Assembly: GCF_028993575.1 (NCBI RefSeq)
Contig: NZ_CP118615.1
Location: forward strand, 558,001-622,000
From: Micromonospora cathayae
GTDB taxonomy: Bacteria > Actinomycetota > Actinomycetes > Mycobacteriales > Micromonosporaceae
Direction: 5' to 3'
Length of the DNA: 64,000 bases
Both the position numbers and the translations under genes were made by a program. Numbering within the stretch: the first letter of the stretch is position 1; each line of letters starts with the position of its first letter. Below are positions 7,240-42,414 of this stretch, piece after piece. The notes under the pieces were generated by a model. It saw only the letters and a list, made by a program, of their open reading frames with translations. It did not search any database and was not told the DNA's origin.

Positions 7240-7560
7240 GCCCACCCCGCGGGTCGCCACGGAACGTGCCTCGGGACCCCTCGAACGGGGTCGACCGGGC
7301 CGCTCGGAACGCGGCGCTCCCGCTGGACCGCCCGAAGCGTAGCGGCACGGTGCTACCGCTGGCCTTACCCGGGCGTGGCCGTCGCAAGCGTGGAAGGTCT
7401 TGCTGTGTCAGCGTGCCTGTCGGGCCGGGGTTCCGTCAAGGGCTGATCACCCGCCAGAGAGCTCTTTCCCAGCGGGGTGCGACCGTCCGACACCGCAGCG
7501 TCACCACCCCTGGCGATCAAATCCCTGCTCACGGCCACTACCGGCCGCTGACACCAACGC

Positions 7561-7596
7561 AACGGGCGGTGACCCGTTTCCGGATCACCGCCCGTT
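7561..7596 (-). terminator. Hairpin terminator/attenuator after rplL
   Basis: Perfect 12-bp stem (AACGGGCGGTGA against TCACCGCCCGTT) with a 12-base loop, about 60 bases past the rplL stop. It probably ends or attenuates rplJ-rplL transcription before rpoB. There is no strong U-tract, so the efficiency cannot be judged. Confidence 0.65.
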
Positions 7597-7655
7597 GGCA
7601 CGCGGTGTGTGCCTCAGCTCACGTGAGCCGGGGCACCGCCGAGGCGAGCGTCAGG

Positions 7656-8042
7656 TCACTTGAGGGTGACCTTGGCGCCCTCGCCCTCGAGCTTGGTCTT
7701 GGCCTTCTCCGCGGTCTCCTTGTTGACCTTCTCCAGGATGGCCTTCGGCGCGGACTCGACCGCGTCCTTGGCCTCCTTGAGGCCCAGGCCGGTCAGCTCA
7801 CGCACGACCTTGATGACCTGGATCTTCTTGCCACCGTCGGACTCGAGGACGACGTCGAACTCGTCCTTCTCCTCCTCGACCGGGGCGGCCGGGCCGGCCG
7901 GGCCGGCCACGCCGGCGACGGCGACCGGAGCGGCGGCGGTGACCTCGAAGGTCTCCTCGAACTGCTTCACGAACTCGGAGAGCTCGATCAGCGTCATCTC
8001 CTTGAACGCGTCGAGCAGCTCGTCGGTGCTGAGCTTCGCCAT
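7656..8042 (-). CDS. rplL: 50S ribosomal protein L7/L12
   Basis: Stalk protein of the large ribosomal subunit that recruits translation GTPases; acts as dimers bound to L10. It has 128 residues, with an N-terminal dimerisation helix ([18 protein letters not shown]), an Ala/Pro/Gly hinge (about residues 36-55) and the conserved C-terminal domain ([20 protein letters not shown]). It lies 54 bases downstream of rplJ, as in most bacteria, and is followed by a strong hairpin. Nothing is unusual apart from the Gly-Pro-Ala-rich hinge. Confidence 0.98.
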
Positions 8043-8096
8043 GTCTGGCGTCCTTTCCTAAATCTACGGAAGATCGAACCGGGGTGCCGGGAGGCC

Positions 8097-8642
8097 TCAG
8101 GCCTGCTCGGCACCTTCCTTCTCGCGCTTGTCCTGCAGAGCGGCCGCCAGACGGGCGGTCTTCGACAGCGGGGCCTGGAACAGGGCCGCGGCCTTGCTCA
8201 GGTTGCCCTTCATCGCGCCGGCCAGCTTCGCCAGCAGCACCTCACGGGACTCCAGGTCGGCGAGCTTCGTGACCTCGGCCGCGGAAATGGCCTTGCCCTC
8301 GAAGACACCGCCCTTGATGACGAGCTTCGGGTTGGCCTTCGCGAAGTCACGAAGCCCCTTCGCCGCCTCGACGACGTCGCCCGAAACGAAAGTCAGCGCG
8401 GTAGGACCGGTGAACAGCTCGTCGAGGCCGCTGATGCCAGCGTCCGTCGCGGCGCGCTTGGCCAGCGTGTTCTTGGCGACCGTGTACGTGGTCTCCTGGC
8501 CCAGCGAGCGCCGCAGCTGGGTCAGCTGGGCGACCGTCAGACCGCGGTACTCGGTCAGCACGGTGGCGCCCGCGCCACGGAACTGTTCGGTCAGCTCGGC
8601 GACGGCGGTGGCCTTGTCGGCCCGGATCGGCTTGTCCGCCAT
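8097..8642 (-). CDS. rplJ: 50S ribosomal protein L10
   Basis: Base of the ribosomal stalk; its C-terminal helix carries L7/L12 dimers. It has 181 residues from the ATG at 8642 ([17 protein letters not shown]), which follows a GGAGGG ribosome-binding site. The frame is open further upstream, but that part has no L10 similarity. The L10 core is clear ([29 protein letters not shown]). The gene heads the rplJ-rplL unit and has a structured leader whose hairpin overlaps the ribosome-binding site, which suggests autogenous translational control. Confidence 0.97.
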
Positions 8643-8650
8643 GTCCCTCC

Positions 8651-8727
8651 TCTCTCGTTGCGCCAGGCTGGTCACCATCGAAGCCGGGCGGCGTCGGTGG
8701 TGGCGGAGGATCGCGATCAACGAGAGA
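8651..8727 (-). promoter_or_regulatory. rplJ leader hairpin (candidate L10-type autoregulatory leader)
   Basis: Two perfect 10-base arms (TCTCTCGTTG at 8718-8727 and CAACGAGAGA at 8651-8660 on the minus strand) enclose 57 bases. The 3' arm runs directly into the GGAGGG ribosome-binding site of rplJ, so the paired form should restrict translation initiation. L10-L12 binding to its own leader is established in other bacteria. That this structure is the actinobacterial counterpart is inference. Confidence 0.6.
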
Positions 8728-9007
8728 AGCCCCGGCGCAGGGCGCACGGGGCGAGGGCCAGCCGGTGGATCGTGGTCGGCGGACCACATGCCATCGAGCC
8801 GGATGTCGCTTGCCGCCCTACGCGGGTCGCCCGTGTGACGCGGGACCTTCGACCGTGCCGGAGCACGGTGACCAGCGGTCTCTGGGTGGTACCTCATCCA
8901 TGAGAACACGGATGACGTCCGAAAGACTACGCGACGCTTCTCCGGTCACCAAATCGCCCCCGACGTGGGCCCGGTCACCCCCGAAAGCCCGCCCGGTTCA
9001 CCGCGCG

Positions 9008-9046
9008 ACCCGCCCGGTCACCCCGACAACCCGCCCGGTCACCCCG
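9008..9046. repeat. Short GC-rich tandem repeat upstream of rplJ
   Basis: The 18-mer ACCCGCCCGGTCACCCCG occurs at 9008-9025 and 9029-9046 (period 21), with degenerate copies on either side, in the untranslated stretch 8935-9104 between the ABC permease and the rplJ leader. No gene is supported in 8643-9104. Confidence 0.6.
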
Positions 9047-9104
9047 GCGATCCGCGCCGGGACCGGCCCGACCGGCCCGGCCGGTCACCGCCCGGCGGCG
9101 GGAC

Positions 9105-9797
9105 TCAACCCCGTGACCGGCGACGCCACCCGTACCCGGCGAGCACCACCGCCGCCCAGAGCACCGCCCAGCCGGTCAACCCGACGGCCGCCACGGCGTC
9201 CACCCCGCCGCTGGTGGCCCGCGCGGTCGCCAGAAGCGGGGGCGCCAGCCAGGGCAGCACCGCGTCGGCACGACCGGCGACCAGCGCGCCGACCACACCC
9301 ACCGCGAGCACCGCCACGCCGTACCCGAGGCTGCCGGCGCACGCCCGGCTGGCCAGCGCGCCGAGCGCCACCGCCGCCGGCACGGCGAGCAGATGGGCCC
9401 AGACCCCCAGGGCGATCCCGACCGGCACCGACCGGTCACCCGCCGCCTCCGGGCCGGCGAGCCCACCCAGCGGCCAGGGCAGCACCAGCGCGAGCAGCAC
9501 CAGGCCCAGCGCCGCCACGGTGGCCGCGAGCAGACCTGCGGCCTGCTCCCGGTGGCGGCCCCCGACCGCCACCACCGCCAACCGCCGCTGCACGTCCGGT
9601 TCCACGTCCAGCACCAGCTTCGTTTGCCAGGCCAGCACCGGGAAGAGCAGAACCGCGGAGACCCCGTACGCCTCGGCCGGCTCGGCGCGGCCACCGCCGT
9701 AGAGGACGCCCAGCACGACCAGGCCGGTCAGCAGGGGCGCCAGCGCCCGTCCGGTACGCAGGAACCCGGCCAGCCGGAACCGGACCAGCGCGCTCAC
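9105..9797 (-). CDS. ABC transporter membrane subunit (unassigned substrate)
   Basis: Protein of 230 residues with about five to six hydrophobic segments (for example LAPLLTGLVVLGVLYGGG, GLLAATVAALGLVLLALVLP, LAVPAAVALGAL), expected in the cytoplasmic membrane. It starts at a GTG at 9797 that overlaps the TGA of the ATPase gene (GTGA), so the two are translationally coupled. It is recognised as the permease half only because of that partner; I see no substrate-specific motif. The pair is inserted between rplA and rplJ, which are usually neighbours. Confidence 0.8.
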   Translation of the reverse strand: MSALVRFRLAGFLRTGRALAPLLTGLVVLGVLYGGGRAEPAEAYGVSAVLLFPVLAWQTKLVLDVEPDVQRRLAVVAVGGRHREQAAGLLAATVAALGLVLLALVLPWPLGGLAGPEAAGDRSVPVGIALGVWAHLLAVPAAVALGALASRACAGSLGYGVAVLAVGVVGALVAGRADAVLPWLAPPLLATARATSGGVDAVAAVGLTGWAVLWAAVVLAGYGWRRRSRG

Positions 9798-10621
9798 CGG
9801 GCCACCCGGCCGCTCGGGGCGCCCGTACCCGGGGCGGCCGGATCGGTCCCGCCGGCGGCGGTGGAGTCGACGGCGCGGGACTCGGTGGCGGTGTCGGGGC
9901 GTACCCGCAGCACCTGGTGACCGGCGGAGCGCAACCGGGCGACGGTGCCGGCGACCCGGGCGGCGGGGACCGCGACCTCGACCACCACCATCTCCGCCGG
10001 GCCCGCCGACCGGCTCTCGGTGACCGTGCCGTCGGTCACCGTCCAGCACCGTGCCCCGGGCAGCCGGACCGTCTCGTTGCGGTGGTCGCTGACCAGCACC
10101 CGACCGCCGGCGGCCAGCACCTCGTCGATCACCAGCGGGACCAGTTCCCGGGCCGCCGCGTCCAGCCCCTCCCAGGGCTCGTCGAGGACCAGCAGGCCGG
10201 GGGTACGGAGCATCGCCTGGGCCAGGCCGACCTTCTGGGCGGTCCCCTTCGACAACTCCGGCAGGCGGACCGCGCGGAAGCCGGCGATGCCCAGCCGGGA
10301 CGTCCACTCGTCCACCGCCCGCGCGGCCCCGGCGGCCGACAGCCCGGCCACCCGGCCCATCGCGGTGAGGTAGTGCGCCACGGTGAACGGCTGGTCGGCG
10401 GGGAACCGCTCCGGGACCCAGCTGACGTGGGCGGGGCGTCCCTCGACCCGGCCCCGGGTCGGTCGGAGCACCCCGGCGGCGACCTGGAGCAGCGTGGACT
10501 TGCCGGCCCCGTTACGGCCGAGCACGACCGCCACCTCCCCCGGGCCGACCTCCGCGTCGGCCTCCCGCAGCACCCACGGACCCCGCCGGTGGTACCGCAG
10601 CGACACGTTCCGCAACCGCAT
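9794..10621 (-). CDS. ABC transporter ATP-binding protein
   Basis: Cytoplasmic ATPase subunit of 275 residues. Walker A is GRNGAGKST. The signature region is LSKGTAQKVGLAQAM, a variant of LSGGQ with K in place of the first G. Walker B is LLVLDEPWEGLD, followed by the H-loop (VSDHR). The last 80 residues form a linker rich in Pro, Ala and Thr with a possible ACT-like fold (PAEMVVVEVAVPAARVAGTVARL). It is coupled to the downstream permease by a 4-base overlap. Start ATG at 10621 (MRLRNVSLRY). Probably a drug- or lipid-type exporter; the substrate is unknown. Confidence 0.9.
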   Translation of the reverse strand: MRLRNVSLRYHRRGPWVLREADAEVGPGEVAVVLGRNGAGKSTLLQVAAGVLRPTRGRVEGRPAHVSWVPERFPADQPFTVAHYLTAMGRVAGLSAAGAARAVDEWTSRLGIAGFRAVRLPELSKGTAQKVGLAQAMLRTPGLLVLDEPWEGLDAAARELVPLVIDEVLAAGGRVLVSDHRNETVRLPGARCWTVTDGTVTESRSAGPAEMVVVEVAVPAARVAGTVARLRSAGHQVLRVRPDTATESRAVDSTAAGGTDPAAPGTGAPSGRVAR

Positions 10622-25434: not shown

Positions 25435-25884
25435 ATGGAGACCTGGCGTCTGCTGGCGGGTGTCGTCGCATGTCTGGCCGTGGGCCTCGCGGGTATCGCA
25501 CTGGCCACCAATTTTCGCGGCGTTGCGGAGTGGCACGTGCGACAGTCGATGGCATTCGCCTCGGCCCCGCTACGGCAAGTTCCGCCGTGGCGTTGGCTGC
25601 CCGAAGTGCCGTACGAGAAGCGGCTGGCACGCCTGATCCTGCTGGACCGCGCGATCGGCATCGTGTTCGCCGCTGCCGGCGTCCTGGCCGTTCTCGCCTA
25701 CGGCTCCGCCACCAACACGCCCCTGACCGGCACCGGTCGTGTGACCATGAAGTTTGGTCATGACACGCCGGGCAGGGGGACAACAACTTCTTGGTCAACG
25801 CCCAGCAGCAGGGGATCAACGACAGCGGCCCCCGAGCAGCATTGCTGCTGTTCAAGGGCCGTAGTCGCACCTGATGGCGGGTAA
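25435..25884 (+). CDS. Small membrane protein, C-terminus running into the tRNA-Tyr attachment scar
   Basis: 149 residues from ATG at 25435. The first 105 look genuine: METWRLLAGVVACLAVGLAGIAL helix, then LLDRAIGIVFAAAGVLAVLAYG helix. The last 40 residues are low-complexity Ser/Thr/Arg, and the stop falls inside the degenerate tRNA-Tyr-like sequence (25870-25928). The original 3' end was therefore probably replaced when an element integrated here. No family recognised. Confidence 0.5.
   Translation: METWRLLAGVVACLAVGLAGIALATNFRGVAEWHVRQSMAFASAPLRQVPPWRWLPEVPYEKRLARLILLDRAIGIVFAAAGVLAVLAYGSATNTPLTGTGRVTMKFGHDTPGRGTTTSWSTPSSRGSTTAAPEQHCCCSRAVVAPDGG
25825..25862 (-). terminator. Terminator hairpin accompanying the outer att remnant
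   Basis: Imperfect stem from GCGGCCCCCGAGCAGCA (25825-25841) with TGCTGCTGTTCAAGGGCCGT (25843-25862). It is the counterpart of the tRNA-Tyr terminator hairpins at 30433-30470 and 31847-31884; each att copy has one at the same distance. Confidence 0.65.
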
Positions 25885-25928
25885 AGGATTCGAACCTGTG
25901 TGCCTTTTCGCGACGGATCTACAGTCCG
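25870..25928 (-). repeat. Outer attachment-site remnant (degenerate tRNA-Tyr 3' half)
   Basis: About 50 of 58 bases match the 3' half of tRNA-Tyr (31889-31948), with one extra base and scattered changes; the T-arm GGTTCGAATCC and the anticodon region CTGTAGATCCG are recognisable. It marks the far end of the integration region and is the oldest copy by divergence. Confidence 0.8.
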
Positions 25929-26037
25929 TCCGCGTTCCGGGCAAGCGGTGAACTGCCAACTGCGCACACGTGACGTCCGCTGCGGCAACCCAAAATCCTG
26001 CCACCATCTGCCGCAGTGGCAGGCGTCCTAGCTCACT

Positions 26038-28653
26038 TCATGCTTGGCCCCGACGGGTCATCCCCAAGGCGTGCCGGTAGAGGTCGGGCACCCGGAACCG
26101 ACGGACCTCTTCCTGAGTACCTTCATGCACCGCTATCAGACCCACCTCTAGCGCCAGTTCGAGCTGTTCCAGCGCATTCGGATTCACGGCCTCAATGTCA
26201 CCAGGGACAAGTGGGGTACGACCGACCACCTCCAAGGCATCGACCATCGCCTTGAGTTCGGGAAACTCCTCGTGGAGCGCCCCTACGGCCTCCGCACTGA
26301 CCTGCTCCAGGCTGGGGACGAGCGCACGTGGCCGTATGACGCTCTGGTCATAGGAGCCCCGCTCCACCATTTCCCACTCCACTGCCGTGGCGAACAGTTG
26401 GGAAAGAGTCCGAGGGCTATGATCACCCTGACCATCGGCGAGCCTGTTCCATACCCAGTTGCGGGTAAAAGTGGTCTTGGCACCCTTCATGCGCTCGCCA
26501 ATCAGGACGTTCCACGCTTGAAATACCTCTTCAGTCCGCCAGGCATCCACATCGGAAGCAATTCCAATGTCAGTCAGAATTGCCTGAAACGCTCTACTCC
26601 GGACCGCCTGCTTCAGCACAGTCTTGAAGTAGTCTGCCTGGTCTCTCCATCGAAGCTGCACGTAGCGTCCGAACAGGTGGCTCTTGTTTTCGAACTGCAA
26701 CTGTTGCCAGATATCGAGACGCAATAGCACCTTGAAGGACAAGTTCTCCAGCCGCGTCTCAGCCTCGGTAAGGAATGTGAACAGACCGGCGACTGCTTCT
26801 GTTCTCCGGTTGCGACTAGCCACGTCGTTTCCGAAACCAGTATCCAGCCCGTCGAACAGGAGGAACCTCGGCGCCGGCAGACTCTTATCAAGGTCTCGAA
26901 GCCACCGGGCAGCAAGCAGCCCTGCCTGCGCATCCTCCATCATCTTAATGACGGTCTCGACGACAAAAAGTTCATCCGTATGCCCTGGCTGCACAAAATC
27001 ATCTACATCGATTTTGAACCGCAAAGGTGGCGTGGTTTCAGGCCGTCTAGGCAGCGCCAAGAAGGTAGCTAGAGCGGTATAACAAGCCCAGAAACGCGAC
27101 CACCCTGCCCCTCGCGCAATTAATGCATCATCGACCGCAGCAAACCCTTCGACGCCAAGCACCCATGGGAACCTATTGCGGAATGTATGAGGGCACATGA
27201 CTACGACCGGCGGATCGCCGCCAGGACGGTCCAGCAGCCATCGAAAGACAGCCGTCTTGCCCGTCCCCTTCCGCCCAATTACGAGCGGATATTGCGAGTC
27301 TGATGCCTGTATGGCTACGCGGGTCTTGACAAAGTCATCGAGGAGGTTCTCGTGGACCTCTGCCTGCCCGCGAGAAAAGTTCAACTCGCGAAGCGCTTCA
27401 CGCTTACCGCTTAAACGGACCGTGCCTTGAGACGAAGATTGCGGCAGCAGCTGCTCAAGCCAGTCGACAACCGGACCGTATGACTCGTCTACCGCCGGCG
27501 AAACCTCCATGAAGTCTTTGAATGCCATATCGGGCGAATAGCTGACACTGTGAGTCAACTCGTCGGCCTGCAGGGCGCCGACATCCAAAGAGCGCCGGTC
27601 AGCAGCCTTAGCGAGCCAACTGTCAATCCACGTTAGCGCACGCTCGCGAACCCGGCCAGCAGAGGGACCGGGTGGAACAGGCGATACGAGAAACCTCGGT
27701 TCCGGCGAAATTGTACGCACACCGTCCGAACGCCTTGTTCTAGCAGCTAGAAGTGACTGAACCAGCAACTCGGTACCCAATTGAGCCTGCGGATGCGGAA
27801 AGAAGCAGACGACCGCTAGGTCGGATATATCAAAGAGCAGCGGCGCACTAATAGGCGATATTCCAGTGCGGGAGTCTACAAGGATGAGTTCGGGCTGTAT
27901 GGAGGATACGGATGCCAAATCAAACAGCGCGTGTAGAGGGTTACTCTCCTCGACGTACCAATTCTCTGGCTCAAGGAGTCGCAGGCGTTGTGCATAGTCA
28001 GCCCCGAGCCGACCGGAGGGAAGGCAATAAAGCTCTTCAGCCTCACTCACCCGCTGCACATGATCCCTAATGTCGACCTCATCCCCCCGCTCAAGGGCTA
28101 GCAGCAAGGGGAGAACCCCCTGCCCGGGACTAGGCTCGGTGAGACGCATCAGATGATGCAGCCCAGGCGCTTCAAAGTCCATGTCGATGCAGAGAACGCG
28201 CCGGCCACGTGACGCAAGTATCCGTGCAGCAGCGGCCAACGCTGTTGTTCGACCAACGCCGCCACGAAGGCTGTAGAAGGTGACAACTGCGGGAGAAACG
28301 ATGTCTTCGTCTAGATCGCTTGCGAAGAGGAGCGGCAGGTTCGATGATTGGCCAAGCGCATCGGACCAAACCGGCAATGCGCCTTCAACTTCTCGTGGCG
28401 GAGGACCATACCACTCCTCTTCTGCCGATGTAAGTAGTTCCGCAGCCTCTACCTGCCCCTCTAAACCACTAAGGAGCAGGTTACGCCTTTCCACATCCGA
28501 CAGACCGGCTAGGGAATCGCTGACCAGCCGTACGCGCCAGCCGTTCTCCATCCCGCGTGCGATGTGAACACGAAGGTCGGCCACACCGCTGTTCAGGCCA
28601 TTCTGTTCCAGCGCGCGCTTTACGGCATCCGCATCGGACTGTTCGGGGTTCAT
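26038..28653 (-). CDS. BolA-like / KGGVGR ParA-like / second P-loop ATPase fusion (predicted conflict-system protein)
   Basis: 871 residues. Residues 1-85 resemble a BolA-like domain (WRVRLVSDSLAGLSDVERR, then an end like EEEWYG). About 120-400 is a MinD/ParA-type ATPase with the variant Walker A LRGGVGRTT (129-137), IDMDFEAPG (156-164) and LILVDSRTG (257-264). About 425-700 is a second P-loop module: Walker A GRKGTGKTA (460-468) and Walker B FLLFDGLD (597-604), resembling the Sll1717-type ATPases. The C-terminus is helical with a winged-helix look. KGGVGR ATPases are known from counter-invader systems. It overlaps the HEPN-like gene by ATGA. The GC content is visibly low, a sign of transfer. 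The BolA call is the least certain. Confidence 0.82.
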   Translation of the reverse strand: MNPEQSDADAVKRALEQNGLNSGVADLRVHIARGMENGWRVRLVSDSLAGLSDVERRNLLLSGLEGQVEAAELLTSAEEEWYGPPPREVEGALPVWSDALGQSSNLPLLFASDLDEDIVSPAVVTFYSLRGGVGRTTALAAAARILASRGRRVLCIDMDFEAPGLHHLMRLTEPSPGQGVLPLLLALERGDEVDIRDHVQRVSEAEELYCLPSGRLGADYAQRLRLLEPENWYVEESNPLHALFDLASVSSIQPELILVDSRTGISPISAPLLFDISDLAVVCFFPHPQAQLGTELLVQSLLAARTRRSDGVRTISPEPRFLVSPVPPGPSAGRVRERALTWIDSWLAKAADRRSLDVGALQADELTHSVSYSPDMAFKDFMEVSPAVDESYGPVVDWLEQLLPQSSSQGTVRLSGKREALRELNFSRGQAEVHENLLDDFVKTRVAIQASDSQYPLVIGRKGTGKTAVFRWLLDRPGGDPPVVVMCPHTFRNRFPWVLGVEGFAAVDDALIARGAGWSRFWACYTALATFLALPRRPETTPPLRFKIDVDDFVQPGHTDELFVVETVIKMMEDAQAGLLAARWLRDLDKSLPAPRFLLFDGLDTGFGNDVASRNRRTEAVAGLFTFLTEAETRLENLSFKVLLRLDIWQQLQFENKSHLFGRYVQLRWRDQADYFKTVLKQAVRSRAFQAILTDIGIASDVDAWRTEEVFQAWNVLIGERMKGAKTTFTRNWVWNRLADGQGDHSPRTLSQLFATAVEWEMVERGSYDQSVIRPRALVPSLEQVSAEAVGALHEEFPELKAMVDALEVVGRTPLVPGDIEAVNPNALEQLELALEVGLIAVHEGTQEEVRRFRVPDLYRHALGMTRRGQA

Positions 28654-29042
28654 GACTTCCTTCCGCTGTTCCGAAGCGGGCGAGCGTACCTAACCCGGCG
28701 TGTCACGATGCCGGCCAGTTCGATCGCTCCGTTGAGCAAGTCTCTCGGCGCATGTGGCGAGTCCACTATGCAGGTATATCTGATGCTCGTGCTCCAGTAG
28801 TCCAGGAACGCGCGCTTGTGACCCCCGATGTCTTCTCTGCGGAGACCAGCTGCGTCCCACAACCCCTGTAGATCATGTCCAGCTTGCCCGGATCGCGGGA
28901 ATGGCTTGCCCGACCGGTTGAGAAGGTCCTTCAACTTGCACTCGATGACGTAGCCAGCCAGGTAGAGAGCCCCGCACAGATGCCCCCCATCCGCTAGATG
29001 CTTCGCCTCGGTCGCACGCATCCGCGCAGCGTCCTCATACAC
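28650..29042 (-). CDS. HEPN-like domain protein
   Basis: 130 residues from GTG at 29042, with AGAGGAG upstream. Helical HEPN signature: GALYLAGYVIECKLKDLL (about 24-41), GHDLQGLWDAAGL (55-67) and the conserved W-x4-R-Y (W83, R88, Y89). Canonical HEPN RNases have R-x4-6-H; here the nearest His after R88 is H97 (R-x8-H), so catalytic activity is uncertain. The stop overlaps the start of the ATPase fusion (ATGA), giving a coupled pair. HEPN proteins next to large NTPases commonly act as effectors of anti-phage systems; that role is inferred. Confidence 0.75.
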   Translation of the reverse strand: MYEDAARMRATEAKHLADGGHLCGALYLAGYVIECKLKDLLNRSGKPFPRSGQAGHDLQGLWDAAGLRREDIGGHKRAFLDYWSTSIRYTCIVDSPHAPRDLLNGAIELAGIVTRRVRYARPLRNSGRKS

Positions 29043-29177: not shown

Positions 29178-30260
29178 TCATCCGAAGGCGTCACCGATCT
29201 TGTCGTTCATGGTGTCGTCTCCCCCGTCGATGCAGCTGGCGTAAACCCGGAGCAGCACCGCGACGCCGTGGCCCAAGCGCCGAGCGACCTCGGTCGGTGG
29301 GACGCCGGCATTCAGCCAGAGCGAGACCGTCGCATGCCGCAGTCCGTAGGGCGACCGACGAGCGGTGGGGCGACCTGCGATTCGGTCAGCACCTTCTCGC
29401 GGGCGAACTTCCACCACCGGTCGTAGACCAACTCGGAGAGCGGTCCGCCCGCCGTGCTTCCCCGGAAGAGCCGACCATCCGAGCCGACGCCGTGATTCTC
29501 GGAGTGCGCGGCCAGCAGCTCGATGATCCGGGGTGGAATCGGGACCGTGAGGTTTCCTGCCGCTCGGTGCTTAAGTCAGCGCCGCTCGTGGCAGCCGCCG
29601 TCATCGATCCAGTACGACCCGGCACGCGGCGAGGTCCCGGCGAGCACCAGACGGCCCCAGCGGGGTTCGGTCTTTGGGTGGTCGCAGGAAGCCGAGGGCT
29701 TGAGGGCCGCCAGATCGTCGAAGTCGGTCCCGCAGCCAAGGCAGTGGGGGAAAGGTCACCGTCGTTCCGCCGCAGGCCGGTCGCTTCGTAGGGCCGCATG
29801 CCGCGTAGCAAAGGCAGCCGAAGAACGCCGTCACCCTGTCGGCCCGGTTGCCGAGAGATTGCACCGCCTCCAGCAGCGTGGCGACCTGGGCCGGGTTCGC
29901 CACCACCCGCCGGTCGTTGAGGTGCGCGACCTCGGGGGCGGTCCACTGGACCCGGCATCGGGTTGGAGTCGATCAGCTCCAGCTCGACGGCGTACCCGAG
30001 GGCCGTTGTAGAAGGTGGTCCGCTTGCGCTGGGCGGTAGAGGCCGCTGCCGGCCTGCCGTCAAGGCGCGCCTCGCTCTGCGCGGCGCGGTAACCCGGCGG
30101 GTGGCTCTCCGCCCCGAGTCTGCTGATCCGAACGGCGGAACGATCACAGCCAGGCGGTACGGAAGCCAAACCGGTCGGCCGCGTCGGCGATCAGGGCTTC
30201 CGACTGCCGCGCCAGTCCAATCCCGGGACTGGCTTTGCCCCGGCTCCTCTCCCGCATCCG
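29178..30260 (-). pseudogene. Decayed tyrosine recombinase (integrase)
   Basis: Fragments of one phage-type integrase are spread over different frames. In order they are AQRKRTTFYN, ALGYAVELELIDSNPM, VANPAQVATLLEAVQ...FFGCLCYA, MRPYEATGLR (catalytic Arg I), a segment with PIPPRIIELLAAHSENHG, and finally GLRHATVSLWLNAG...LGHG...RVYAS with the H-x-x-R region, the second His and the nucleophile Tyr. At least four frameshifts are needed, so it is not functional. Its position beside the att at 30478-30531 marks it as the integrase of element 1. The 5' end is ill-defined, and no gene is seen in 30261-30477. Confidence 0.85.
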
Positions 30261-30432
30261 CGGTACCTTACCGCGACCCCGCTCAGCCGATCGCTACACG
30301 CACGGACTCCGCCAGGACCGGACCCAAACCCCAGCGTTCGCAGCCCCAGAGGACCCTCAGCGGGCAAGATCGACCTGCCCACAACCAGTCGTCAACCGCT
30401 GGACTCAGCCGGACCCCGCCAGACAAACCACT

Positions 30433-30470
30433 ACGGCCCCCGATCAGCATTTCTGCTGGTCAGGGGCCGT
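30433..30470 (-). terminator. Terminator hairpin accompanying the middle att copy
   Basis: 17-base arms (30433-30449 and 30454-30470) pair with one mismatch and one G-U. It is located like the terminator behind the intact tRNA-Tyr, so it was carried in with the att-bearing fragment. Confidence 0.7.
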
Positions 30471-30477
30471 TGTCGCA

Positions 30478-30531
30478 CCTGGTGGCGGGTAGAGGATTCG
30501 AACCTCTGTAGCTTTCGCGACGGATTTACAG
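30478..30531 (-). repeat. Middle attachment site: perfect 54-base copy of tRNA-Tyr 3' half
   Basis: Bases 30478-30531 are identical to 31892-31945, covering the tRNA 3' end (with encoded CCA), the T-arm and the variable arm up to the anticodon region. The match stops abruptly at 30531/31945. This length and position are typical of the core of a tRNA-targeting integrase. Confidence 0.92.
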
Positions 30532-30916: not shown

Positions 30917-31743
30917 TCAAGAGCCAGCTTTTTCCTCTCCACCTGCAGACTTTGCAGGCACGAGGGGATCAGCCGCCTCCCACAGCGCCTCCGCAAGCTG
31001 CTTGAGCGCATCCGCACCCGACTCAGGAACCCTCATGAAGACGGTGTTGGCGGTGCCAATGGTACCCAACGAGGCCCCCAGCATGTAGACCTCGCCAGTG
31101 TCAGCGACGATCAATCGATCGTGAAGGGTCGAGCTGCCCGTCGCGCGAATCTCGATGTCTGGAGCGGGGTCCAAGCTCGCGAGCGCAACGGCCAGTTCCG
31201 CTCTCGCCTCCGTGCTGTTTTGTACTGCTTGGAGATCAGCACCCGCTTGATCCGCGTTGACTGAAGCACCGTTTCCAGCTGAGGCAGACGGAAGTAAGGG
31301 TCGACCAGGAAGGCGTCGCCCAATCGCGCTATTTCGCCAATCAGCCTGGCGTAGGCGAAGCGGTCTGTGGTTTCCAGCACCACAACTGGCGATCGCTCGT
31401 CCTGGTCCAAGGCCCTCTGCGTGTCCTTAAACAGAGCGTCACCAAGCCGGGTCAGCTGAAGTCGTTCGTCTTCAGAGGCAGAGATCCACTTGATGCGCAC
31501 GAGATGGTCAACAGGATGCTCTTCTGTGGTCTCGCGAACCCCGTAGAACTGCTGGCCGAAAGCCTGCAAGATGCGTTCCATGCTCTGCGTCAGGGCACCG
31601 GGCTGAACAACCTTCGTCGTGGTCTTTGGGGCCGGCTCGTCAAACCACAGCTTCACCTCCTCCAGAGTCGGACGGTAGCCCGACCGGTTGCATGCCTGGA
31701 TGAAGGCCAACGTCCTGCGCTGCCCAGTTGCGACGATGTCCAC
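30917..31743 (-). pseudogene. PLD-like (phospholipase D fold) gene interrupted by one -1 frameshift
   Basis: Start GTG at 31743 with GGGAGG six bases upstream. The first frame runs to about 31220 (ending FLVDPYFRLPQLETVL...KRVLISKQ) and the rest continues in the -1 frame (STEARAELAVAL...IEIRATGSSTLHDRLIVADTGEVYMLGASLGTIG). Together they would make about 275 residues. HDRLIV resembles the HKD-type half motif of PLD-like nucleases and conflict proteins. The break is at an A4 run (T4 at 31218-31221 on the plus strand). It may be a mutation, a sequencing error or, less likely, programmed slippage. Confidence 0.65.
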
Positions 31744-31773
31744 AGCCACCCTCCCGAGATCAACCTGCCGCCA

Positions 31774-31798
31774 CCGCGTGCCCGCTGCATGCCCGATC
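31774..31798. repeat. Direct repeat near the right end of remnant 2
   Basis: Partner of 30614-30638 (23 of 25 identical, same orientation), lying between the PLD-like gene start and the tRNA-Tyr terminator. Confidence 0.55.
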
Positions 31799-31846
31799 AG
31801 CGGGTCGATCAGGGTCAACCACGGAGAACGGTGGAAGGAGACAACG

Positions 31847-31884
31847 AAGGCCCCTGACCAACGTTTCCGCAGGTCAAGGGCCTT
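31847..31884 (-). terminator. Terminator of tRNA-Tyr
   Basis: 13-base arms AAGGCCCTTGACC and GGTCAGGGGCCTT (minus strand, one G-U in RNA) are followed by TTCGTTGT. The best intrinsic terminator in the region, 10 bases past the encoded CCA. Confidence 0.85.
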
Positions 31885-31893
31885 GCTGTTCCC

Positions 31894-31977
31894 TGGTGGC
31901 GGGTAGAGGATTCGAACCTCTGTAGCTTTCGCGACGGATTTACAGTCCGCTCCCATTGGCCGCTCGGGCAACCCGCC
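31894..31977 (-). tRNA. tRNA-Tyr (GTA), CCA encoded; integration target
   Basis: Type II tRNA with long variable arm. Acceptor GGCGGGT/ACCCGCC, discriminator A and encoded CCA (31894-31896); anticodon loop CTGTAAA (GTA); T-arm GAGGTTCGAATCCTC. It is the only intact copy of three; its 3' 54 bases are repeated at 30478-30531. Confidence 0.97.
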
Positions 31978-32136
31978 AGGGCGTCGCCACCACGCCGTAA
32001 CGCGGCAGCGGAGCAAGGATAGCGGTTCCACCCCGGCCTCGTGCAACCGGGTACGGTCAGGGGGTCGTACCGCTGCCCAGTGGGCGACCCGTGACACCAC
32101 GTTCAGACCCCGGACAGCAAGCAGGAGCAGAGGATC

Positions 32137-32631
32137 ATGGCAGCGAACCCGTCCTTCGACATCGTGAGCAAGGTCGACCGTCAGGAGGTCGACAACGCCC
32201 TCCACCAGGCGGAGAAGGAGCTTGCGACGCGGTTCGACTTCCGGGGCACCGGCGCGGAGATCTCCTGGTCGGGCGAGGAGGCGATCAGCCTCCAGGCGGA
32301 GACCGAGGAGCGGGTTCGCGCCGCCCTGGAGGTCTTCAAGGAGAAGCTGGTCAAGCGGAACATCTCGCTCAAGTCCCTGGACGCCGGCGACCCGCGCCCC
32401 TCCGGCAAGATCTTCAAGATCGACGCCAAGGTGATCCAGGGCATCGAGTCCGACAAGGCGAAGGCGATCAGCAAGAAGATCCGCGACGAGGGGCCGAAGG
32501 GCGTCCAGGCGCAGATCCAGGGCGACCAGCTCCGGGTCACCGGCAAGAAGAAGGACGACCTCCAGGCGGTCATCACGCTGCTCAAGACCGAGGACTTCGG
32601 GATCGCCCTCCAGTTCACGAACTACCGCTGA
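32137..32631 (+). CDS. yajQ: YajQ-family nucleotide-binding protein
   Basis: 164-residue UPF0234 protein with two RRM-like halves ([65 protein letters not shown]). Family members bind nucleic acids, and the Xanthomonas and Pseudomonas proteins bind c-di-GMP; whether this one does is unknown, though a GGDEF-EAL protein lies elsewhere in the window. Start ATG at 32137 behind CAGAGGATC. A terminator follows directly. Confidence 0.95.
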
Positions 32632-35901: not shown

Positions 35902-37371
35902 TCACACCAGCCCGAGCAGCAGTTGGGGGGCGAAACCGAGCAGGACCGCGACGGCCGTGGCGGCGGCGAGCGCCACCGTCACCGCCCGGGTCGGCCGGGT
36001 GCCGGTCGTCCCGGCAGCGTCCCCGGGGGCGTACAGGGTGGCGGTGACCCGCAGGTAGTAGGCCAGCCCGAGGACCGCGTTCAGGGCCACCACCAGGGCG
36101 AGCCAGCCGGCCCCGCCAGTGGTCAGCGCCCGCACCACGGTCACCTTGGCGAACAGCCCGGCCAGCCCCGGCGGCAGCCCGGCCAGCCCGATCAGGGCCA
36201 GCCCGAACGCCGCCCCGACCCAGCGGTGCCGGCGGGCCGCCCCCCGGTAGTCGGCGACGGTGCCGCCGTCCGCGCCGGCCGGACGCAACGCCACCACCCC
36301 GGCGAACGCGGCGAACTCCAGCAGCACGAAGAAGACCGCGTACCCGACGACGGCGGCGTACGCGGCGGTGCGGGCGTCGGCCCCGCGCCCGGCGGCCAGC
36401 GCCAACGCGCCCAGCGGGGCCAGGATGTAGCCGGCCTGGGCCACCGACGACCAGGCGAGCAGCCGGACCATCCGGCGCTGCCGCAGCGCCACCAGGTTGC
36501 CCACCGTCATGGTCGCCACGGCGAGCAGGGCCAGCACCGGGCCGGTGACGGTGGCCGGCAGCGCGTACTGGACCACGGCCAGCAGCGCCACCACGCCACC
36601 CAGCTTCGAGGCGGTCGACAGGTACGCGGCCACCGGCACCGGCGCGCCGTCGTAGGTGGCCGGCGCCCAGGCGTGGAACGGCACCGCCGCCACCTTGAAC
36701 GCCAGCCCGAGCACCAGCAGCGTCACGGCGACCGTGGTCAGCGGCAGGTCCAGCAGGTCGGAGCCGGCGGTGAGGGCGCTGCCCAGCGGACGCAGGTGCA
36801 GCCGGCCGGTGACCGCGTACAGCAGCGCCGCGCCGAGCAGGGTGACCGAGGTCGCCACCACGCTGACCACGAAGAAGGTGACCGCCGCCTCGGCTCCGGC
36901 CCGGCTGCCCCGGCGCAACCCGACCAGCACGTACAGCGGCAGGGTGAGGGTCTCCAACGCCACGACCAGGGTGATCAGGTCGCCGGCCGCGCCCAGCACC
37001 ACGCCGCCGGTCATCGAGCAGGCGAGGAGGAAGCAGTACTCCCCCACCGGTACCCGGCCGTCCCGCAGCAGCGGGCCGGACAGCGCCAGCACCCCGAGGG
37101 TGAGCAGGGCGAACAGCACCCCGACCAAACCGGCCCGGTCGTCGGCGAGGTACGAGCAGCCGTCGGGGACGCAGAACGTGCCCCGCTCGCCGCCGGCCCC
37201 GACCAGCGCCGCGCCGACGGCGGTGGCGAGCGCGCCCGACGCGGCCGTGCCGACGGTGACCCGGGGGCGGGCCACCAGCAGGTCGGCCAGCAGGACCAGG
37301 ACGGCGGTGCCGGCGGCCAGGTACGCCGGCAGCAGCGCCACATTGTCGACGGACTGGACCACGCTGGTCAC
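35902..37371 (-). CDS. nuoN: NADH-quinone oxidoreductase subunit N
   Basis: 489-residue antiporter-like membrane subunit of complex I. Typical segments: VSVVATSVTLLGAALLYA, FKVAAVPFHAWAPATYDGAPVPV (the broken helix 7 with Lys) and QRRMVRLLAWSSVAQAGYIL. Starts at GTG 37371, overlapping the nuoM stop by four bases (GTGA). Last gene of the I-J-K-L-M-N block. Confidence 0.95.
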   Translation of the reverse strand: MTSVVQSVDNVALLPAYLAAGTAVLVLLADLLVARPRVTVGTAASGALATAVGAALVGAGGERGTFCVPDGCSYLADDRAGLVGVLFALLTLGVLALSGPLLRDGRVPVGEYCFLLACSMTGGVVLGAAGDLITLVVALETLTLPLYVLVGLRRGSRAGAEAAVTFFVVSVVATSVTLLGAALLYAVTGRLHLRPLGSALTAGSDLLDLPLTTVAVTLLVLGLAFKVAAVPFHAWAPATYDGAPVPVAAYLSTASKLGGVVALLAVVQYALPATVTGPVLALLAVATMTVGNLVALRQRRMVRLLAWSSVAQAGYILAPLGALALAAGRGADARTAAYAAVVGYAVFFVLLEFAAFAGVVALRPAGADGGTVADYRGAARRHRWVGAAFGLALIGLAGLPPGLAGLFAKVTVVRALTTGGAGWLALVVALNAVLGLAYYLRVTATLYAPGDAAGTTGTRPTRAVTVALAAATAVAVLLGFAPQLLLGLV

Positions 37372-38930
37372 GGGCGGACCACCTCCACGAGGGCGGCGAC
37401 CGGCGTCTCGGCCACCCCGAGCACCAGCGCCGGAACCAGGCCGATCACCAGGGCGAGCAGCACCAGCGGGGCCCACGCGACCAGCTCCGGGACGGCGATC
37501 CCGGGCGTGATGCCGGCCACCGCCGGACTGGGTCGGCCGTGGGTGACCCGGCGCAGCAGGCGCAGGAAGTAGGCGGCGGTCAGGGCCGCGCCCACCGCGC
37601 CGAGCACACCGAGCGTGGTCCACAGCGGCCCGCCCACCTGGATCGCGGCGACCACGGCGAACGCCTCACCCCAGAAGCCGGCGAGGCCGGGCAGCCCGAG
37701 CGAGGCGACGGCGGCGAAGGCGAGCAGCCCGGCCAGCCGGGGCGCGGTCTCCCGCAGCCCGGACAGGTCGGCCAGCGCGCCGGTGTGGGTACGGTCCTTG
37801 ACCGCGCCGGCCAGGAAGAACAGCAGGCCGGTGATCACGCCGTGCGCGACATTGCCGATCAGGGCGGCCTGGATGCCGGTGGTGGTAAGGGTGGCGATGC
37901 CGAGCAGCACGAACCCCATGTGCCCGACGCTGGAGTAGGCGATGAGCCGTTTCAGCTCGTCCTGGGCGAGACAGACCAGCGAGCCGACGACGATCGCGGC
38001 GACGGCGAGCACGCCGAGCACCGGCGCGGCCCAGCGGGCCCCCTCCGGGGCCACCCCGACGGCGACCCGGATCAGCCCGTACGTGCCCATCTTGAGCAGC
38101 ACCCCGGCCAGGATCACGCTGCCCACGGTCGGTGCCTGGGTGTGCGCGTCGGGCAGCCAGGTGTGCAGCGGCCAGAGTGGACTCTTCACCGCGAAGGCCA
38201 GCCCGAGCAGGGTGAACGCGGCCAACTGGGTGCCCCGGGAGAGCCCGGTGCCGCCGGTCAGCGTGGTGAGGTCGGCGGTGCCGGCGGCGGACACCACCAC
38301 GTACACGCCGACCAGCAGCAGCACCGAGCCGGCCAGGGTGTAGAGGGCGAACTTGCGGGCCGCCGCCCGCGCCGCGTCCCGGTCCACCGGCTGGTAGGTC
38401 GCGTGGCGGCGGGCCATCCCGGTGCCGGCGGTGCCGCCCCAGCCGGCGATGACCGCGTACATGGGCAGCAGGACGACCTCGAAGAAGAGGAAGAACAGCA
38501 CCAGGTCGAGGGCGAGGAAGGTGCCGAGGATGCCGACCTCGATCACCAGCAGCAGCGCGACCAGGGCCCGCCCGGATCCGCCGCCGGGCACCCGCCACAG
38601 GGTGTACCCGCAGCAGAGCAGGGTGAGCAGGGCGGTCAGCACCACCAGCGGGTACGAGATGCCGTCCACCCCGAGGTGGAAACGCAACTCCAGGGCGGGT
38701 ACCCAGGGCACGTCGACCCGGTGCCAGGGCAGCACCGCCGGCTCGGTGGCGGTGTACGCGGTCCAGGATCGGGGGCCGGTGGCCAGCAGGGCCGTGCCGG
38801 CCAGGGTGAGCGCGGCGACGGCCACGCCGACCAGCCGGGCGGCCCGGTCGTGCGGCAGCACGGCGACCACGACCGCGCCGAGCGCCGGCACCGCCAGCAC
38901 CGCGACCAGCAGGAACTGACCGAACGTCAC
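37368..38930 (-). CDS. nuoM: NADH-quinone oxidoreductase subunit M
   Basis: 520-residue proton-pumping antiporter-like subunit. It has the essential-Glu helix [39 protein letters not shown] and LKRLIAYSSVGHMGFVLLG. Start ATG at 38930 (MTFGQFLLVAVLAVPALG). It is separated from nuoL by 88 bases of repetitive GC-rich sequence (38931-39018) and followed by nuoN with a GTGA overlap. Confidence 0.96.
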   Translation of the reverse strand: MTFGQFLLVAVLAVPALGAVVVAVLPHDRAARLVGVAVAALTLAGTALLATGPRSWTAYTATEPAVLPWHRVDVPWVPALELRFHLGVDGISYPLVVLTALLTLLCCGYTLWRVPGGGSGRALVALLLVIEVGILGTFLALDLVLFFLFFEVVLLPMYAVIAGWGGTAGTGMARRHATYQPVDRDAARAAARKFALYTLAGSVLLLVGVYVVVSAAGTADLTTLTGGTGLSRGTQLAAFTLLGLAFAVKSPLWPLHTWLPDAHTQAPTVGSVILAGVLLKMGTYGLIRVAVGVAPEGARWAAPVLGVLAVAAIVVGSLVCLAQDELKRLIAYSSVGHMGFVLLGIATLTTTGIQAALIGNVAHGVITGLLFFLAGAVKDRTHTGALADLSGLRETAPRLAGLLAFAAVASLGLPGLAGFWGEAFAVVAAIQVGGPLWTTLGVLGAVGAALTAAYFLRLLRRVTHGRPSPAVAGITPGIAVPELVAWAPLVLLALVIGLVPALVLGVAETPVAALVEVVRP

Positions 38931-39018
38931 GCCGCACCCCCGAACAGGTGAACCCGGCCGGGCAGGGCGGGCGAGCCGGGCAGGTGGATCCGGCCCGACA
39001 GGGTGGGCGAGCCGGGCC

Positions 39019-40935
39019 TCATGCGGCGACTCCGAGCAGGGCGGCGGCCAGGCCGATCAGCAGGGCACCGGCCAGCACCGCCACGGCCGCCCGGGGCAGC
39101 GCCGCCCGGTGCAGGGCGGCCAGCCCGCCGCCCAGGCCGGTCGCCGCACGTCCGCTGCCCTCCACCGCGCCGTCCACCACCCGCTCGTCCGCGGTACGCG
39201 CCAGCCGGGCCAGCCCGACGACCGGGCGTACCACCAGGGCGTGCTGGACGGCGTCGAGCCGGAACGCGGACGCGAACACCGACCGCAGCGGACCCAGCGC
39301 GGTCGCCGGGTCGGCGGCCGTGTCCCGCCGCCACCGGGACCAGGCGAGCCCCGCCCCGAGCAGCAGCAACGCCACCGGCAGCAGCAGCTCCGGACCGAGG
39401 TGGACCAGGTCCCCGGTGGACGGGGCGGCCAACCGTGCGGCGAACGCCGGCCAGAACCCGGCCAGGCCGAGCAGGGCGGCCGGCACGGCGAGCAGCAGGA
39501 TCGGCCAGCGCATCAGGGCGGGCGGGTCGTGCGGGTGGGCCAGTTCGGCGCGCCGCCGGCCGAGGAAGGTGCGCAGCAGCAGCCGGGTGGCGTACCAGGC
39601 GGTGACCGCGACGCCGAGCAGCCCGGCCAGCCAGACCAGCCAACCCACCCAGACCGGCGTCGGGCCGGTGCCGTGCAGCGCCGCCTCCTGGGCGACCGCG
39701 AGCACGCCCTCCTTGCTGAAGAAGCCGGACAGCGGCGGCAGCCCGGCCAGCGCGCCCAACCCGACCACGGTGCACCAGAAGGTGACCGGCATGTCCCGGC
39801 GCAGCCCGCCCATGCCGGACATCAGCGTGGTGCCGACCGCGTGGATGACCGCCCCGGCGGCCAGGAACAGCAGCGCCTTGAACGCGGCGTGGGTGAGCAG
39901 GTGAAACAGGGCCGCCGAGGTGGAACCGACGGCCAGCGCCCCGGTCATGTACCCGAGCTGGGACACCGTCGACCAGGCCAGGACGCGTTTCAGGTCGTCC
40001 TGGGCGGTGGCCGCGAACGCGCCGAGCAGCAGGGTGACCGCGGCCATGACGCCGAGCACCGCCAGCGCGGTCGGGGCGGCCAGGAACAGCGGGTACAGCC
40101 GGGTGACCGCGTACACCCCGGCGGCGACCATCGTCGCGGCGTGGATCAGCGCCGAGATCGGGGTGGGGCCGGCCATCGCGTCCGGCAGCCAGGTGTGCAG
40201 CGGGAACTGGGCGCTCTTGCCGGCCACCCCGGCGAGCAGCAGCAGGCAGGCGGCGGTGAGCGTACCGGTGGCGTGGTCGTGGGCGAGCACGTCGGCGATC
40301 CGGAAACTGCCCGCGCTCACCCCGAGCAGGGCGATGCCGAGCAGGAATCCCACGTCGCCCACCCGGGTGACCAGGAACGCCTTCATCGCGGCGGCCGGCG
40401 CCCCGGGCAGCCGCCGGTCGTGGGCGATGAGCAGGTACGAGCAGACCCCCATCACCTCCCAGCCGACCAGCAGCAGGATCAGGTCACTGGAGACCACCAC
40501 CAGCAGCATCGCGGCGGTGAACAGGCTGATCTGGGCGGCGTACGGCGGGTAGCGGTGGTCCACCTCGACGTCGTCGTGCGGGCCGCGCCGCAGGTAGGCC
40601 ACCGAGTAGACCTGCACGGCCAGGGCCACCGCGGCCACCGCCACGGCGACCAGGGCCGCCGCGCCGTCCAACCGGACGCCGAGGGTGACCCGCAGGTCGC
40701 CCAGCTCGATCCAGGTCCGGCTGGCCTCGGTCGGGGCGTCCAGGCCGACCAGCAGGGCCACCGCGAGCGCCAGCGCCCCGGCCGCGCCGGCCACGCCGAG
40801 CGCGATCGCGGCCCGTCGGGCCCGTTCCCCGCCACCGGCCCGGCCCCGGGGGGAGGGTGCCAGCAGCAGCCCGGTCAGCCCCGCGAGCAGCGGTACGGCC
40901 GGCAGCAGTACGCCGAGGGTCGTGACGCCGCTCAC
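39019..40935 (-). CDS. nuoL: NADH-quinone oxidoreductase subunit L
   Basis: 638 residues; largest membrane subunit of complex [50 protein letters not shown] and [16 protein letters not shown] are all present, followed by the long C-terminal region with the lateral helix. GTG start at 40935 overlaps the nuoK stop (GTGA). Confidence 0.96.
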
Positions 40936-41309
40936 CGGGCGACCTCCTCGGCGGGCCGGTCCGTCCGGTCGGGGCGCTGTTCCGGGTCGGCGGCCACCGC
41001 GGGGCGTTCGGTCAGCGGGATCTCGTCCACGGCCACGGTGGCCCGCAGCCGGTACAGCTGGAGCACGATCGCCAGCCCCACCCCGATCTCGGCGGCGGCC
41101 AATACGATCACGAACAGCGCGAACACCTGCCCGCCGTGCGGCAGGGTGGCCCGGACCGTGGTGTCGGCGGTGACCAGGACCAGGTTGACCGCGTTCAACA
41201 TCAACTCGACCGCCATCAGCACCAGCACGGCGTTGCGCCGCCGCAGCACGCCGTAGACGCCGAGCCCGAACAGCAGGGCGGCGGTGACGTACGGGATGAC
41301 CGGCCTCAC
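40932..41309 (-). CDS. nuoK: NADH-quinone oxidoreductase subunit K
   Basis: 125 residues, three membrane helices; the conserved Glu-bearing helices are [15 protein letters not shown] and [18 protein letters not shown] polar C-terminal tail (about 25 residues, rich in Asp, Arg and Pro) is longer than in E. coli. Start GTG at 41309 ([17 protein letters not shown]), overlapping nuoJ by GTGA. Confidence 0.95.
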
Positions 41310-41830
41310 CGGCTGTCCCCGCCCCGTCGCGGCCCGGCACCGATGTCGGGGCGACTGATCACGATCGCGCCGACCAGGGCGGACAGCAGCAGCACCGAGA
41401 GCACCTCGAACGGCAGCACCCAACTGGCGAACACCTGCGTGCCGAGGCGCTCGGCGGTGCCCGCCTCCGGCAGGTCCACCCGTGACCAGCGGTACGCGTC
41501 AACCAGCAGGACGGCCAGCCCCAGCCCGGTACCGCCGCCGATCAGGGCGGCCGGCCAACCGGGCCGGTCCAGGTCGTCGGACGGGCCGATCGGGGCACGG
41601 GTCAACATCACCGCGAACAGCAGCAGCACCACCACCGCGCCGACGTAGATGAGCACCTGCACCCAGGCGACCAGCTCGGCGGTGAGGACGAGGTAGATCC
41701 CGGCCAGCGCGCCGAGGCACACCACCAGGTAGAGCCCGGCACGGACCAGGTGCCGGGTGGTCACCACCAGGACACCCGCGCCGACCGCCACCGCGCCGAG
41801 CGCGAGCAGCAGCACGTCCGCACCGGTCAC
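41306..41830 (-). CDS. nuoJ: NADH-quinone oxidoreductase subunit J
   Basis: 174 residues, five helices. VWVQ-like [21 protein letters not shown] is the diagnostic helix containing the pi-bulge region. Start GTG at 41830 ([17 protein letters not shown]), overlapping the nuoI stop by four bases. Confidence 0.94.
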
Positions 41831-42414
41831 TCGGGCGTCCCTCCGGTCGCGGCGTCGGGGCGTACCCGGGGGGCGGCCGGACGGGCGGCGGGGCCGGCCG
41901 GGAGGGCGGCCTTGCGCGCGGCGGTGGTCTCCTCCTTGGCGGGCTCGCCGTTCGGATCGTGCGCGGGCGGCGGTGGGACGGTGCCCATCCACTGCCCGAG
42001 GTGGTCCTTGTCGTGCAGCAGGTCCTTGATGTCGTACTCGGCGTACTCGAACTCCGGCGACCAGTAGAGCGCGTCGAACGGGCAGACCTCGACGCAGATG
42101 CCGCAGTACATGCAGAGCGAGAAGTCGATGTCGAACCGGTCGAGGACGTTGCGCTGGCGGGGGCGGGCCGCGCCGGGCACGGCCACCTCCTCCTTGTGCG
42201 AGTCGATGTAGATGCACCAGTCCGGGCACTCCCGGGCGCAGAGCATGCAGACCGTGCAGTTCTCCTCCAGCAGGGCGATCACCCCACGGGAGCGCGGCGG
42301 CAGTTCGGGGGCCACGTCCGGGTACTGCTGGGTGTGCGTGCGGCGGGTCATCGTCTTCAAGGTGACCGCCAGCCCCTTGGCCAGACCGCTGCCGGGCACC
42401 CCGCCCCCGCTCAC
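41827..42414 (-). CDS. nuoI: NADH-quinone oxidoreductase subunit I (2x 4Fe-4S)
   Basis: 195 residues carrying clusters N6a and N6b: [15 protein letters not shown] and [16 protein letters not shown]. Start GTG at 42414 ([19 protein letters not shown]). The C-terminal 55 residues form a Pro/Ala-rich tail absent from E. coli NuoI. First gene of the contiguous I-N block. Upstream (42415-42558) there is only a divergent gap to a Uma2 gene, so nuoI is now separated from nuoH by 4.9 kb. Confidence 0.95.

Follow-up and report, generated by a model that had tools for sequence, protein, structure and literature searches.

A HEPN-fold protein and a fused, BolA-bearing two-ATPase protein on a small tRNA-Tyr island of Micromonospora cathayae: a variant of the PADLOC-DB candidate PDC-M28

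The window, by which the whole analysed stretch of 64,000 nucleotides of Micromonospora cathayae DNA is meant, contains a pair of overlapping genes on the minus strand, flanked by copies of a tRNA-Tyr repeat. The features of the locus are as follows.

25819-25923, no strand assigned: outer copy of a 105-nt tRNA-Tyr repeat, probable att remnant (repeat comparison)
25873-25958 and 31894-31977: tRNA-Tyr calls
26038-28653, minus strand: large gene, 871 aa, ATG start, fused PDC-M28B + C-like (ORF)
26041-27393, minus strand: second ATPase of the large protein, residues about 421-871 (NF047389), P-loop GRKGTGKT with Lys466, Walker B FLLFDGLD
27430-28296, minus strand: ParA/MinD-like ATPase of the large protein, residues 120-408, P-loop LRGGVGRTT with Arg135
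28390-28653, minus strand: BolA-like domain of the large protein, residues 1-88 (hhalign probability 97.4)
28650-29042, minus strand: small gene, 130 aa, GTG start, PDC-M28A-like HEPN-fold protein (ORF and fold)
29181-29570, minus strand: possible tyrosine recombinase remnant, weak (PF00589, E 0.096)
30427-30531, no strand assigned: middle repeat copy, at the opposite end of the pair-bearing insert (repeat comparison)
31841-31945, no strand assigned: third repeat copy, inside a complete tRNA-Tyr (repeat comparison and tRNA call)

The two open reading frames share the four bases ATGA, as the original prediction had described, and its remark that they are poorer in G+C than the chromosome agrees with a content of 58.5% for the pair vs 70.8% for the whole window. 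Sliding segments of 3005 bases reach so low a G+C content in just 2 of 305 cases, with those that overlap the pair counted. In comparison with Saccharothrix, pN and pS are 0.13 and 0.78 for the ATPase and 0.10 and 0.79 for the HEPN protein (dS is saturated), and since pN lies far under pS both proteins are, by this measure, under purifying selection.

The pair sits in a low-GC insert bounded by degraded tRNA-Tyr repeats, the outer and middle copies. The repeat contains the 3' part of tRNA-Tyr, and the other two copies are 74% and 84% identical to the middle one. A dead integrase had been placed between tRNA-Tyr att repeats by the original prediction; the repeats are borne out, and the integrase is weakly supported, as one piece (29181-29570) reaches 12.9 of 27.1 bits against Phage_integrase, under the curated cut-off, and the other pieces scanned in the stretch gave no match. 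By eye, this broken stretch upstream of the pair looks like a frame-shifted tyrosine recombinase. A query made of the left flank and the repeat matches 160/160 genomes of the genus, and at least 12 of these, among the matches listed, carry two repeat copies some 15-26 kb apart, which suggests that tRNA-Tyr is a frequently used, shared integration site in the genus.

Another small segment (30917-31857, minus strand), found between the middle repeat copy and the third, contains a frame-broken gene whose ORFs (30917-31174 and 31111-32205) occupy different frames and matched no Pfam model. This gene ends in LHDRLIVADTGEVYMLGASLG, in which a resemblance to a phospholipase-D-like motif can be seen by eye. 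Elsewhere, positions 36001-42000 of the window form 6 kb of steady positive AT skew (0.21-0.37) at a G+C content of 74-77%, from which most of the window differs.

Relatives were gathered as 61 loci (L numbers below), 55 of which hold a near full-length ATPase with upstream sequence; L059-L062 are fragments or other proteins, and L031 and L038 are cut at a contig end. The original prediction had made its case depend on the co-occurrence of the two genes, and this is conserved, with a HEPN gene directly upstream of the ATPase in 52 of the 55 usable loci and a four-base overlap of ATPase start and HEPN stop possible in 36 of those 52. Nothing recognisable precedes the ATPase in L014, and HEPN remnants are found in L030 and L034. 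The L030 locus has an apparent natural internal deletion (about 7515-10532), in which the start of the HEPN gene is joined to the ATPase; little else of HEPN is left, and the BolA-like domain lacks its beginning. Across 47 loci (L048, L007 and L054 being dropped), the distances between ATPases correlate with those between HEPN proteins at 0.87, a value that also reflects host descent, and 2000 permutations reach at most 0.26. The two genes thus form a unit and are passed on together.

The rows of the tree come from nine phyla (Actinomycetota, Pseudomonadota, Cyanobacteriota, Thermodesulfobacteriota, Myxococcota, Bacillota, Bacteroidota, Planctomycetota and Chloroflexota). Within the genus, where up to five candidates were scored per genome, a full-length orthologue was found in 1 of 160 genomes; divergent fused proteins, matched as two pieces, were present in two others (G102, G109), and in the remaining 107 genomes with a match, similarity is confined to the KGGVGR region (about residues 80-334). 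The proteins encoded by these 107 genomes are different ones, mostly >1300 aa, that have just this ATPase part in common with the window protein. Matches were found in 2 of 72,556 plasmid records, five partial ATPase relatives occur in viral contigs, and phage records gave no relative of the ATPase. A tRNA precedes the pair in 6 of 45 loci scanned, namely tRNA-Tyr in Saccharothrix (L002) and tRNA-Glu in five Streptomyces loci. In the latter (L020, L022, L027, L028 and L042) the pair stands right behind the same tRNA-Gln/tRNA-Glu cluster, a common position that may represent an old shared insertion.

Profile comparison upholds the earlier reading of the first 85 residues of the large protein as BolA-like, here over residues 1-88. 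The profile-profile score (hhalign) is 63.1 vs at most 15.9 in 100 column shuffles; the Pfam BolA model itself matches 2/52 ATPase members (best E 0.0035). A BolA domain has a KH-like fold, and the conserved His of its HAL motif is an iron-sulphur ligand. Whereas this His is present in 16/16 BolA rows, the window protein, otherwise akin to BolA/IbaG by profile, does not have it and carries the domain fused to ATPases; a His at equal distance before TP is found in 2/52 ATPase rows (L021, L023). Judged from its sequence, the BolA-like domain is degenerate. A PF01722 BolA gene was found in none of 21 genomes searched, the window's own included, so the 16 BolA sequences were drawn from 12 of the 23 genomes behind the relatives' loci.

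The remainder of the large protein had been described as a ParA-like ATPase with the variant LRGGVGRTT loop joined to a second P-loop ATPase, and both parts are supported by NCBIfam, the first by the KGGVGR loop model NF047398 (E 5.5e-45) and the second by NF047389 Sll1717 (E 2e-26). The Walker-A Lys of ParA/MinD is that of the GK in KGG..GK, and Arg135 replaces it in 52/52 rows. Lys466, Asp601 and Asp604 of the second ATPase are likewise found in 52/52 rows, and this domain retains its predicted catalytic motifs. The ORC/CDC6-like or STAND model PF24389 matches 40/52 members (E up to 0.1, best 1.7e-7), the window protein being unmatched.

The fold of the middle domain is that of MinD/ParA, the structure matches listed for the large model being MinD-like chains, and several relatives are annotated 'ParA family protein' at source, so that one reading to consider is a common ATPase for the partition or positioning of a mobile element. 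This reading is disfavoured, and very improbable, given the invariant replacement of the Walker-A Lys by Arg, the fusion to a second ATPase and a BolA-like domain, and the linkage to HEPN in nearly all loci. Moreover, a third conserved gene is absent, as no neighbour family recurs in >3 of 57 loci (greedy ORF calls), and hence there is no ParB partner. That the large protein is not an ordinary partition ATPase is in keeping with the original prediction.

The small protein has a HEPN fold according to its structure model (pLDDT 93). On its own it gave no match in Pfam or NCBIfam, and a family alignment was therefore needed. PF05168 (HEPN-T) matches 40/51 HEPN family members (E up to 0.1), among which the window protein is not found; the PDC-M28A profile matches 47/51 at the same limit, and for none of the 51 was there a convincing Pfam model besides PF05168. 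Model fold and family profile together confirm the HEPN-like nature first proposed for it, and both are common to the HEPN-T proteins TM0613 and ST0689. The HEPN-T partner is a nucleotidyltransferase, whereas that of the window protein is a two-ATPase protein.

In addition, unlike HEPN-T, the window family holds the RNase motif Rx4-6H at the conserved Arg (R88) in just 2/50 alignment rows. This alignment includes the window protein, leaves out 5 of 54 hits (L005 twice, the second of L054, L026 and L052), and retains some disrupted HEPN ORFs, e.g. L048 and L054. Patterns of the Rx4-6H type occur elsewhere in the sequence in 33/50 rows, three times in the window protein, and an Arg stands 5-7 residues before H56 in 15/50 rows, the window included, in a column that is unconserved (R in 11/50). 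With the canonical motif absent at the conserved Arg, the RNA-targeting HEPN effector of the original prediction is not established. Nevertheless, E34, K38, H56, R88 and Y89 are each retained in 48-49 of 50 rows, and the near-invariant H56, R88 and Y89 are compatible with catalysis, RNase activity being putative.

The missing motif leaves some room for a reversal of roles, in which the two-ATPase protein would do the work and HEPN, devoid of catalysis, would serve as a sensor or adaptor that binds RNA or nucleotides. A survey of the HEPN superfamily does allow for non-catalytic, RNA-binding HEPN domains (Anantharaman et al. 2013, PMC3710099). This arrangement is unlikely, as no nuclease or other effector domain was recognised in the large ATPase with Pfam and NCBIfam, and the retention of H56, R88 and Y89 fits a catalytic HEPN protein.

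The original prediction had regarded the pair as an undescribed system. Its kind is already on record, because PADLOC-DB contains its parts as PDC-M28, a candidate of PADLOC-DB v2 (models PDLC04557-04561). PDC-M28B (PDLC04559) matches the large protein at E 1.2e-24 over model positions 128-301 of 438, PDC-M28C (PDLC04561) matches it at E 6.6e-14 over positions 172-409 of 480, and PDC-M28A matches the small protein at E 2.2e-5 over positions 5-72 of 138. All three components are thus recognised in the window pair, which is not made up of three separate genes with near full-length matches. Such a three-gene PDC-M28 is present in actinomycete G213 (L120) in the order A-B-C, with near full-length matches for A (3.9e-27), B (1e-107) and C (8.1e-145), and PDC-M28C was matched in 5 of 396 genomes of the phylum.

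The same parts, a HEPN-like A, a KGGVGR ATPase B and a Sll1717-type C, follow in the same order in the window; what differs is that B and C are fused there, that the models are partially covered and that an N-terminal BolA-like domain is present. Because the A, B and C models match partially and the three-gene locus shares the order, the window pair is, on the sequence evidence, a fused, BolA-bearing variant of the listed candidate PDC-M28. In two further loci (L123, L124), the gene for a divergent fused protein is overlapped by a HEPN-like gene upstream of it, which is matched weakly by the family's own HEPN profile (E 3.7e-5 and 8.1e-4) and by no PADLOC PDC-M28A model. The BolA-like N-terminus was detected neither in these two nor in the three-gene locus. 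According to PMC12988326, PDCs stem from a guilt-by-embedding screen, and validation is absent for most of them. In a search limited to open-access papers other than preprints, none names PDC-M28, KGGVGR or Sll1717.

A comparable arrangement is known from a probably different HEPN family, MAE_18760, which forms a dyad with a ParA/Soj-like ATPase postulated to be an antitoxin, and which is listed with a conserved Rx4-6H in the survey cited above (PMC3710099). As in the window, a HEPN gene stands beside the gene of a ParA-like ATPase; MAE_18760 is absent among the Pfam matches of the 51 members. With this precedent, and with the pair intact beside a decayed putative integrase, the pair could conceivably be a toxin-antitoxin-like stabiliser, in which a HEPN toxin restrained by the ATPase retains the island and phage defence is secondary or absent. 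We consider this doubtful, since antitoxins are usually far smaller than the large protein, which also has an intact second ATPase, and since the surveyed loci have varied chromosomal surroundings and plasmid records rarely match.

The neighbourhoods of the relatives, to which the original prediction had looked for other defence genes, do contain clear ones in some cases. In L015 (1894-12212), genes for HsdR, HsdM and HsdS, which make up a type I restriction-modification operon, are followed in one direction by HEPN, the ATPase and an NsnB/HEC-03B-like ATPase. A near full-length HEC-03B (E 2.2e-124) lies downstream in L047, a PglX/type IIG-like methylase upstream in L021 and an OLD/mad3-like ATPase upstream in L012. 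These examples belong to a hand-picked set of ten neighbours from six loci, of which seven have a PADLOC-type defence match (E up to 1e-5) and three do not. More broadly, 267 PADLOC models were matched by 130 neighbours, a count that excludes 23 neighbours >900 aa and 138 further neighbours, vs 164 by 120 control proteins taken from 6 genomes (20 regions); five reverse transcriptases dominate the control list, which makes the two counts hard to compare.

Taken as a whole, the pair is a mobile unit and probably an antiviral module of a listed candidate kind. The division of labour that we favour, at roughly even odds, assigns sensing and switching to the large protein and the role of an RNA-directed effector to its HEPN partner. 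We infer that infection would be sensed by the large protein, in which the second ATPase would be the switch, the ParA-like part, with Arg for the Walker-A Lys, would serve as a nucleotide-dependent dimerisation scaffold and not as a motor, and the degenerate BolA domain would bind nucleic acid or a partner. Once infection occurs, the HEPN protein would be released or arranged by the large protein and would then act on RNA, either by binding it or at a non-canonical site (E34, K38, H56, R88, Y89), so that growth stops. That this fused, BolA-bearing PDC-M28 branch on a small tRNA-Tyr island reacts to infection in the manner proposed may be right or wrong with about equal chance. A more specific version is improbable, in which a de-functionalised BolA domain is a nucleic-acid or redox sensor, a lysine-less ParA domain the scaffold and an ORC/STAND-type ATPase the switch of a widespread immune module of two proteins, with HEPN as an RNase whose new H56/R88/Y89 active site replaces Rx4-6H.

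As the split PADLOC models cover the fused form partially, searches that use such models may under-call it. With the present analysis an anonymous PADLOC candidate becomes a testable architecture of putative sensing, switching and acting domains. The BolA fold appears to have been reused in what is probably a conflict system, and the genome concerned gave no BolA gene with PF01722. For HEPN chemistry, the family raises the question of whether RNA can be cut without Rx4-6H at the usual Arg, where other charged residues are near-invariant.
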